From the NCBI GenBank assembly GCA_910575495.1, contig CAJTFS010000002.1:186001-250000 (forward strand): DNA of 64,000 bases. The letters are read 5' to 3'. This document shows positions 32,591-62,621 of this stretch, piece by piece (positions within the stretch are counted from its first letter, which is position 1; every line of letters begins with the position of its first letter). A program made the translations under genes and the position numbers. This DNA comes from Bacteroidales bacterium (GTDB lineage: Bacteria; Bacteroidota; Bacteroidia; Bacteroidales; Rikenellaceae). Below the pieces are notes generated by a model. That model made no database searches and had not been told where the DNA came from. It saw only the letters and a program-made list of their open reading frames with translations.

Positions 32591-33035
32591 GCAATTACCT
32601 CGCTCCGCTCCGTGTTTGCTGTCGTCGCGGCGGCAAAGAATCAGAAACGGAAATTCCTTTCGGAAAGCGCTTCGCACAAAAATACCTGCTCAAGTAAAAC
32701 TTGGCAGGGCAATTACCTCGCTTCGCTCCGTGTTTGCTGTCGTCGCGGCGGCAATCTCCGATTGCAAAACTCTCTTCGAGAGCCATTACATAAACAAAAG
32801 CAATTACCTCGCTCCGCTCCGTGTTTGCTGTCATCGTGGCGGCAAAGAATCAGAAACGGAAATTCCTTTCGGAAAGCGCTTCGCACAAAAATACCTGCTC
32901 AAGTAAAACTTGGCAGGGCAATTACCTCGCTTCGCTCCGTGTTTGCTGTCGTCGCGGCGGCAAAGAATCAGAAACGGAAATTCCTTTCGGAAAGCGCTTC
33001 GCACAAAAATACCTGCTCAAGTAAAACTTGGCAGG
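32591..33035 (-). repeat. Tandem repeat array, unit 118 bp, four copies (one 91-bp variant)
   Basis: Units: 32591-32708, 32709-32799, 32800-32917 and 32918-33035. Units 1, 3 and 4 are 118 bp and almost identical. Unit 2 shares its first ~46 bases, then carries a different 45-base tail. Read on the minus strand each full unit opens with a hairpin (CCTGCCAAGT, loop, ACTTGAGCAGG) followed directly by TATTTTTG, which is both a T-rich terminator tail and a TAnnTTTG box. The array sits between fabG and the PorQ-like gene. 118 is not a multiple of three, so it is not a protein repeat. Function unknown. Confidence 0.9.
33004..33035 (-). terminator. Probable fabG terminator supplied by the first repeat unit
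   Basis: A hairpin 33012-33035 (10-bp stem with one bulged base, loop TTT) is followed on the minus strand by TATTTTTG (33011-33004), 66 bp after the fabG stop. The same structure recurs in units 1 and 3. Confidence 0.55.
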
Positions 33036-60271: not shown

Positions 60272-61948
<1,677 letters not shown>

Positions 61949-61982: not shown

Positions 61983-62013
61983 CAAAGATACGAATAAGCG
62001 AGGGCAAAAGCAA
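61983..62013 (-). promoter_or_regulatory. Promoter of ettA, embedded in the first 73-bp repeat
   Basis: TATCTTTG (61983-61990) and TTGC (62010-62013) on the minus strand are 19 bp apart. The leader is ~30 nt. Both elements recur in the third repeat unit. Confidence 0.6.
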
Positions 62014-62338
62014 GCTCGCTTGCATTTTGCCGAGCGGGAGTATCTTGGGCGAAGCCAAAGTCGGATAAGCCGAGCCCGATGCCAAATTTATTTGAGCATT
62101 CCCGAGGCGGAAGTATCTAAGGCGGAGCCAAAGATACGAATAAGCGAGGGCAAAAGCAAGCTCGCTTGCATTTTGCCGAGCGAGAGTATTTTGGGCGCAG
62201 CCAATGTACGAAAAGTCGAGCGCAGAAGCAAGCGTCAGCTTGATTATGCCAAGACGGAGTATCTTCGACGAAGTCAAAGTCGAATAAGCCGCAACAAAAA
62301 ATTGGCTTTTTGCCGAGCAGGAATGCCTTCGATGAAGA
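61983..62338 (-). repeat. Tandem array, period exactly 73 bp, five units (last shortened)
   Basis: Units start at 61983, 62056, 62129, 62202 and 62275; the first four are each 73 bp, the fifth ~64. Units 1 and 3 differ at only 3 positions, while 2, 4 and 5 are strongly diverged yet keep the length. Each begins with CAAAG- or CAATG-type sequence (reverse complement of the -7 box TATCTTTG in units 1 and 3). Each holds a central inverted repeat (GGCAAAAGCAAGC / GCTTGCATTTTGCC) and another at the unit junctions (GTATCTT / AAGATAC). 73 is not divisible by 3. Function unknown. Confidence 0.88.
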
Positions 62339-62389
62339 TGTGTAAGAACGTATGCTTATCCGCATCAATGGCCCCTCTGTCGTTTTTGA

Positions 62390-62477
62390 GCGGCTCTCGG
62401 AGCCGCGCGGGCCGCAGTCTCCCCCGGCGGAGGCCCGCAGAATCCGGCTGGCGCCGGGCGTGCCCCGCAGGCTGCGG
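62390..62477. other. Very GC-rich block with nested inverted repeats
   Basis: A stretch far richer in G+C than its flanks contains GCGGCTC-TCG-GAGCCGC (62390-62406) and GCGGGCC/GGCCCGC (62407-62413 with 62432-62438). No reading frame here looks like a gene. It could encode a structured RNA or be an extended terminator; I cannot assign a known RNA family. The remaining 62339-62621 sequence shows nothing else. Confidence 0.35.
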
Positions 62478-62621
62478 TCCGCACACATACTAACAGGTCG
62501 AATGCAGAATCGGCAAAAGAGAGGAATGTTTCGGATGAGTATAATTATTTGTCCGGATGCCGTATTTTGGTCGAAGCCGATGATGCGCATTGAAACGCCA
62601 CGCTGAAAACTCCGGACACGG

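Follow-up and report, generated by a model that had tools for sequence, protein, structure and literature searches.

An array of promoter-like units upstream of ettA

In the 64,000-nucleotide stretch of a Rikenellaceae genome analyzed here (the window), ettA (60272 to 61948, minus strand; TIGR03719, 925 bits) is preceded by an array of units of about 73 bp, four plus a decayed fifth, at positions 61983 to 62338. TRF reports a 73-bp period at 61983 to 62289 (score 285) and also a 146-bp period (score 386), and cutting the array at 73 bp places the unit starts, given here on the plus strand, at 61983, 62056, 62129, 62202, and 62275. Unit 1 (61983 to 62055), the gene-proximal copy, and unit 3 (62129 to 62201), whose box is intact, both belong to type A and differ at 3 of 73 positions, the near-identity that had been noticed from the letters. 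Unit 2 (62056 to 62128) is a shortened type B copy with its -7 box decayed to CGACTTTG, unit 4 (62202 to 62274) is of type C with its box decayed to TACATTGG, and unit 5 (62275 to 62338) is a decayed, partial, and shorter copy that scores 10.6 bits with nhmmer. A coding repeat was rejected, since neither 73 nor 146 is divisible by three and the open reading frames look like chance frames.

Units 1 and 3 both have the minus-strand sequence TTG-N20-TATCTTTG, so the -33/-7 pair that the sequence-only reading had placed in these two units is indeed there. The box of unit 1 (61983 to 61990, minus strand), with its -33 TTG 20 bp upstream (62011 to 62013, minus strand), precedes the ettA start codon by about 35 bp and is likely both the ettA promoter and an insertion junction, and ettA is predicted to be driven from it. 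Unit 3 has the intact internal box (62129 to 62136, minus strand) with a TTG at 62157 to 62159.

Beyond the array, the distal flank (62339 to 62595) is shared with the lepA locus, L020: part of the ettA array plus 257 bp of flank is paralogous to that locus at 95.7% identity, indicating that composite copying occurs too. A second, GC-rich dispersed repeat lies in the distal flank (62383 to 62481), pieces of it occur near other arrays of the genome, and it reaches up to 97% identity in a related genome, G012. Elsewhere in the window, positions 32800 to 33035 hold two tandem copies of a 118-bp unit that are 97% alike.

Dispersal of the units and their target genes

Searched against its own assembly, the array gave 46 matches, far beyond chance and with best E-values outside the ettA locus reaching 1e-93, which, together with the TRF periods, upholds the tandem array first reported. 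A unit profile run on the stretches around these matches, with a unit counted at a profile score above 20 bits, found about 104 units. These make up 44 arrays, each with one to seven units, and were assigned to types named A, B, C, D, E, F, and H. Spacing from unit to unit is mostly 69 to 79 bp across the genome, with 73, 74, and 75 the commonest values and 91 the maximum. The exact 73-bp length claimed earlier therefore holds at ettA and not in the family as a whole. Type B units are normally 75 bp and type C units 74 bp, and the constant length with drifting sequence, which had been read as a sign of structural selection, is a local coincidence.

Placement of the arrays is one-sided. With genes called around the arrays by a predictor trained from ettA and its relatives, 40 of the 44 arrays turn their TATCTTTG / CAAAGATAC end to the 5' end of a gene oriented away from them, and in 29 of those 40 the array edge lies 7 to 57 bp from the predicted start codon. 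Read on the gene strand, nearly every proximal edge is ...CTTATTCGTATCTTTG, followed by unique sequence. Many of the target genes are housekeeping genes, and those downstream of arrays include ettA, lepA, prfA, ftsY, ruvB, dxs, ychF, an lspA-like gene, and genes for an Mrp/ApbC-like protein and the methylmalonyl-CoA mutase small subunit; further targets are MATE, ZupT, NhaC-like, and QueD genes. A sequence of about 150 bp without a clear gene follows two of the arrays (L013:4378-4531 and L034:4750-4900) and also adjoins one array in G012.

Empty sites end at the -7 box

In relatives, array-less ettA orthologs have a -7 box at about the same place (e.g., L039) and no unit-like sequence at the promoter, and the number of units at ettA is 0 in G007, 1 in G009, 2 at L107, and 5 in this genome. 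Where empty sites can be aligned, the array stands between the native -33 region on its far side and the native 5' UTR on its gene side, with a -7 box at both ends. At L026, a flank ending in TATCTCTG is followed by the array, TATCTTTG, and the native 5' UTR; this flank is identical to the array-less G012 ortholog at 37 of 43 positions, and the match ends exactly at the G012 -7 box, TATATTTG. The flank of L038 likewise ends at the -7 box in comparison with G007 and G009, with the comparison to G002 falling below the shuffle threshold, and so does that of L222 of G149 compared with G199. Only three loci beat shuffles in flank alignment, two of them narrowly, and the comparisons are between species and not strains. 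Across the whole locus, no advantage over shuffles was seen for the flank alignments of L030, L219, and L220 or for those of L038 with the more distant orthologs L301 and L303; judged by eye, L030, L219, and L220 are suggestive as further empty-site cases.

At L030 the distal, internal, and proximal boxes all read TATTTTTG, as does the box of the array-less G007 promoter, so the duplicate there appears to be derived from the target. Outside L030, target-derived and element-carried boxes look the same, because boxes are nearly always TATCTTTG; variants seen at insertions include TATATTTG and TACCTTTG. The units thus resemble a MITE in being small, noncoding, and dispersed in many copies and in having an 8-bp box at both ends in the manner of a target site duplication, one that is clearly target-derived at L030 only. 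They depart from a MITE at the inferred ends, which lie between the boxes as (G/A)CTTCGTC... and ...CTTATTCG and are not terminal inverted repeats; the inverted repeat that the units do have, AAGATAC/GTATCTT, has one arm inside the unit and the other overlapping the box. In the stretches around the matches, no related autonomous transposon sharing these ends was noticed.

Promoter content of proximal and internal units

The sigma-ABfr consensus consists of TAnnTTTG at -7 and TTTG near -33 (PMC7366714), and the units match it in sequence, with TAnnTTTG at -7 and TTTG or TTG near -33. Among 77 proximal units with an intact box, taken from several genomes, 76 have a TTG 20 to 22 bp upstream, compared with 11.5 expected from shuffles, a regularity of -33/-7 spacing that supports the earlier description of the units as promoter bearing; they are predicted to start transcription. 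The box is intact in 36 of 42 proximal units and in 23 of 62 internal units (p = 8e-7), and such retention of proximal boxes with decay of internal ones would be expected if the gene needs no copy but the proximal one. At the native promoters on the distal side, a TTG stands at the -33 spacing in only 9 of 49 candidate boxes, so that the native -33 element is not generally recognizable by a simple TTG rule.

Stacking, turnover, and the history of arrays

Most arrays are composite. In this genome, 24 of 31 multi-unit arrays contain mixed types, and the unlike units at ettA, which had been taken for one diverged tandem duplication, are better explained by the stacking of different subfamilies. 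This composition bears directly on whether the array is simply a minisatellite that grew by local tandem duplication of the ettA promoter without any mobility. The units do stand head to tail, and some arrays are of a single type (D in L017, L018, and L033; E in L025), which indicates that local tandem duplication also happens. However, copies of these units precede dozens of unrelated genes, subfamilies are mixed in most arrays, and the array-less orthologs have nothing unit-like from which duplication could have started. As a sole cause, a minisatellite is therefore contradicted and very improbable, and local duplication remains as a secondary process. The all-D arrays (L017, L018, and L033:18462-18686), with units of about 81 bp in L017 and an arm, AGATAG, that matches a C preceding the box, look like products of local amplification.

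Orthologous promoters share the same anchor and often differ in the type of their proximal unit, which is B here and A in G012 at L016, B here and A in G007 at L037 (position 15433), and D, E, and C at L017, L025, and L031, respectively, compared with A in the orthologs. Type B is overrepresented in proximal positions (p = 0.02), and types C and F are so at later positions (p = 0.008), which weakly suggests that newer copies adjoin the gene. Movement does not appear to be frequent, since many arrays are common to several species at the same promoters. One array, L028:3164-3688, may mark a breakpoint: compared with G007 (C28:52087-59980), gene order is rearranged across it, with one side inverted.

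That several promoters (L020, L022, L027, L036, and L037) are occupied both here and in G007 would also fit a conserved regulatory module, a promoter with a hairpin operator bound by a regulator, in which similarity among the units is kept by selection and gene conversion at a translation and housekeeping regulon. The housekeeping genes among its many targets, and the conserved stems and CGAG motifs described below, speak for such a module. Nevertheless, we regard it as unlikely: MATE, ZupT, NhaC-like, and QueD genes share no common pathway with the other targets, ettA has between no units and five depending on the genome, comparison with empty sites shows the upstream flank skipping over the array, the unit type changes at one and the same promoter, and the distribution across families is patchy.

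A folded form with compensatory changes

Folded as single-stranded DNA, unit 1 has a z score of -2.4 and forms an inner hairpin (62003 to 62031) that overlaps the -33 element and an outer stem (61985 to 62046) in which AAGATAC (61985 to 61991) pairs with GTATCTT (62040 to 62046) and overlaps the box. The inner hairpin is kept across types with different stem sequences (mean z score of -2.2 over 69 distinct inner segments, every unit folded separately), and RNAalifold finds changes on both sides in 4 of 5 pairs. Together with outer arms that covary with the box in some subfamilies, these are the compensatory stem changes that had been proposed as a check on the sequence-only reading. Flanking the inner stem on either side is a CGAG motif that hardly varies, though it is unpaired.

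Variant arms and boxes that go together are TATATAC with TATATTTG, AGATAG with CTATCTT, AGGTAC with TACCTTT, and AAAATAC with TATTTTT. Summed over units, arm-box pairing exceeds all of 2000 shuffles. Many variant boxes, probably decayed, are not matched by the arm, which pairs better with its own box in 11 cases, better with the consensus box in 27, and equally well in 8. We offer as a speculative idea that the element of about 65 bp could target the housekeeping -7 element through its folded form, its internal arm pairing with the box, which would let variant arms accompany variant boxes.

The whole ettA array, folded as minus-strand RNA, is also more stable than shuffles (z score of -4.1), and intact internal boxes could start transcripts, as would be needed if the distal units gave rise to small RNAs or structured leader RNAs. 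Such RNAs, which the sequence-only reading had listed among its options, gained nothing in support: Rfam covariance models gave no match in the window at the gathering score, the inverted repeats of the element account for the folding, and unit number and order are not conserved. We therefore consider them barely credible as an explanation.

A probable promoter-rebuilding mobile element

All the above is probably best explained by a stacked mobile element that inserts at the -7 boxes of sigma-ABfr promoters and supplies a promoter of its own. The element would be noncoding and about 65 to 67 bp long (about 73 to 75 bp with one 8-bp box), each array being a stack of copies. Its target would be the -7 box TAnnTTTG, for the most part TATCTTTG, and insertion, in a single orientation, would leave a box at both ends, such that the array comes to separate the native -33 element and spacer, on its upstream side, from the native transcription start, on its downstream side. 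As the element would place its own TTG at -33 spacing from the abutting box, no target gene, not even an essential one hit in its core promoter, would be left without a promoter. Boxes left intact after each insertion would allow other subfamilies to insert alongside, and older internal boxes would decay because only the gene-proximal promoter is needed. The units would be moved by a recombinase or transposase acting in trans, which presumably recognizes the folded form.

Transposition is what we infer from features that appear in the sequence itself, namely, dispersal, one-way placement at the -7 box, a box at both ends compared with empty sites, and the -33 spacing, along with proximal-box retention, mixed types, unit turnover at fixed anchors, and stem compensation. 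The promoter-bearing unit and the mobile repeat of the first reading would then be one thing, a mobile -33/-7 hairpin element sitting in promoters. If this is true, a promoter-rebuilding element can occupy, stack in, and progressively replace the promoters of core genes: it would insert in the most constrained spot of the promoter and supply the missing half, so that the gene keeps running. This would explain how a parasite-like repeat could colonize essential promoters, such as those of ettA, lepA, prfA, ftsY, ruvB, and dxs, and would give a route for promoter swaps of core genes in gut Bacteroidales. Moreover, with one to seven tandem promoters each, the arrays would make up a natural series for expression tests.

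Distribution, candidate movers, and known repeats

The family is strongly represented here and in four congeners, and most of the other relatives sampled show it faintly or not at all, so that copies sought in related genomes after the first reading were found there and in other Bacteroidales. Across the order, the repeat occurs in a second genus of the family (G149), in several species of the genus of G061 at 86% identity, and weakly in a few more, and its sites there are again mostly -7 boxes. This patchy distribution across Bacteroidales fits a mobile element, and the same -7 anchoring is seen in other families. The repeat is absent from the plasmid collection searched, and an exact 21-base piece of it is absent from viral contigs; two short unannotated fecal "bacteriophage" records match it.

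Hairpins also raise the possibility that the repeat is REP/BIME-like or derived from IS200/IS605 and is moved via single-stranded DNA by a Y1 (HUH) transposase. Unpaired CGAG at both feet of the stem fits such a repeat, as does the complementarity between an internal arm and the box, which includes some compensatory pairs and is reminiscent of guide-target pairing. Yet Y1_Tnp (PF01797) had no match in six carriers (this genome, G002, G007, G009, G012, and G149), some of whose assemblies are incomplete, and a mover may have been lost. The absence of Y1 transposases from Rikenellaceae carriers argues against RAYT and IS200/IS605, and we find this origin quite improbable. Of the REP-like mobile repeat suggested earlier, mobility and dispersed copies stand, and kinship with RAYT-type REPs does not: REP/BIME sequences are likewise short dispersed hairpins, often clustered, whereas the units here are found in core promoters, in one orientation, in carriers without a Y1 transposase.

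A different mover is suggested by CTnDOT-type integrative elements. The attB consensus of IntDOT, GTANNTTTGC, resembles the -7 box and ends up on both sides of CTnDOT. CTnDOT-type elements are thus similar to the present one in having a GTANNTTTGC-like box at both sides and differ from it in being large and encoding their own integrase. Because the CTnDOT integrase site resembles the box, tyrosine recombinases are the first class of candidate mover.

Correia elements exceed the present element in length, have terminal inverted repeats, and target TA, whereas the present element is without such ends and targets an 8-bp promoter box. In Neisseria, they are small mobile repeats that lie upstream of genes and carry promoters (PMC10969869). 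Bacteroidales also harbor BrickBuilt, a MITE of Porphyromonas gingivalis with tandem repeats that has promoter activity in reporter assays, may drive neighboring housekeeping genes (argS), and exists in 19 copies, in which a leader and a tail segment enclose tandem 23-bp units and the ends are small inverted repeats (PMC4596501). Both are dispersed intergenic elements of Bacteroidales with promoters in tandem repeats, promoters that are predicted from sequence in our case. They differ in that no homing to a -7 box is reported for BrickBuilt, and here each unit of about 73 to 75 bp, not 23, is an element, the junction is the -7 box, and leader and tail are absent. PINSR of Prevotella intermedia, a 188-bp intergenic repeat in 177 to 184 copies without terminal inverted repeats (PMC4755523), is similar in being intergenic, of high copy number, lineage restricted within Bacteroidales, and without such ends, but it has no tandem hairpin units and no reported tie to promoter boxes. 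We found no description of the present family in the open-access papers searched. The promoter-bearing repeats BrickBuilt and Correia are its nearest known kind, and what is new would be the precise homing to, and duplication of, a core promoter box.

Related hairpins with a CGAG-flanked core and other ends (e.g., CCTTTTCC...GGAAAAG) lie between genes and off -7 boxes, at L026:1633-1750, L025:2383-2418, and L037:14037-14089 in this genome and at L189:8860 and L191:7012 in G012, and are possibly a sister family with another target.
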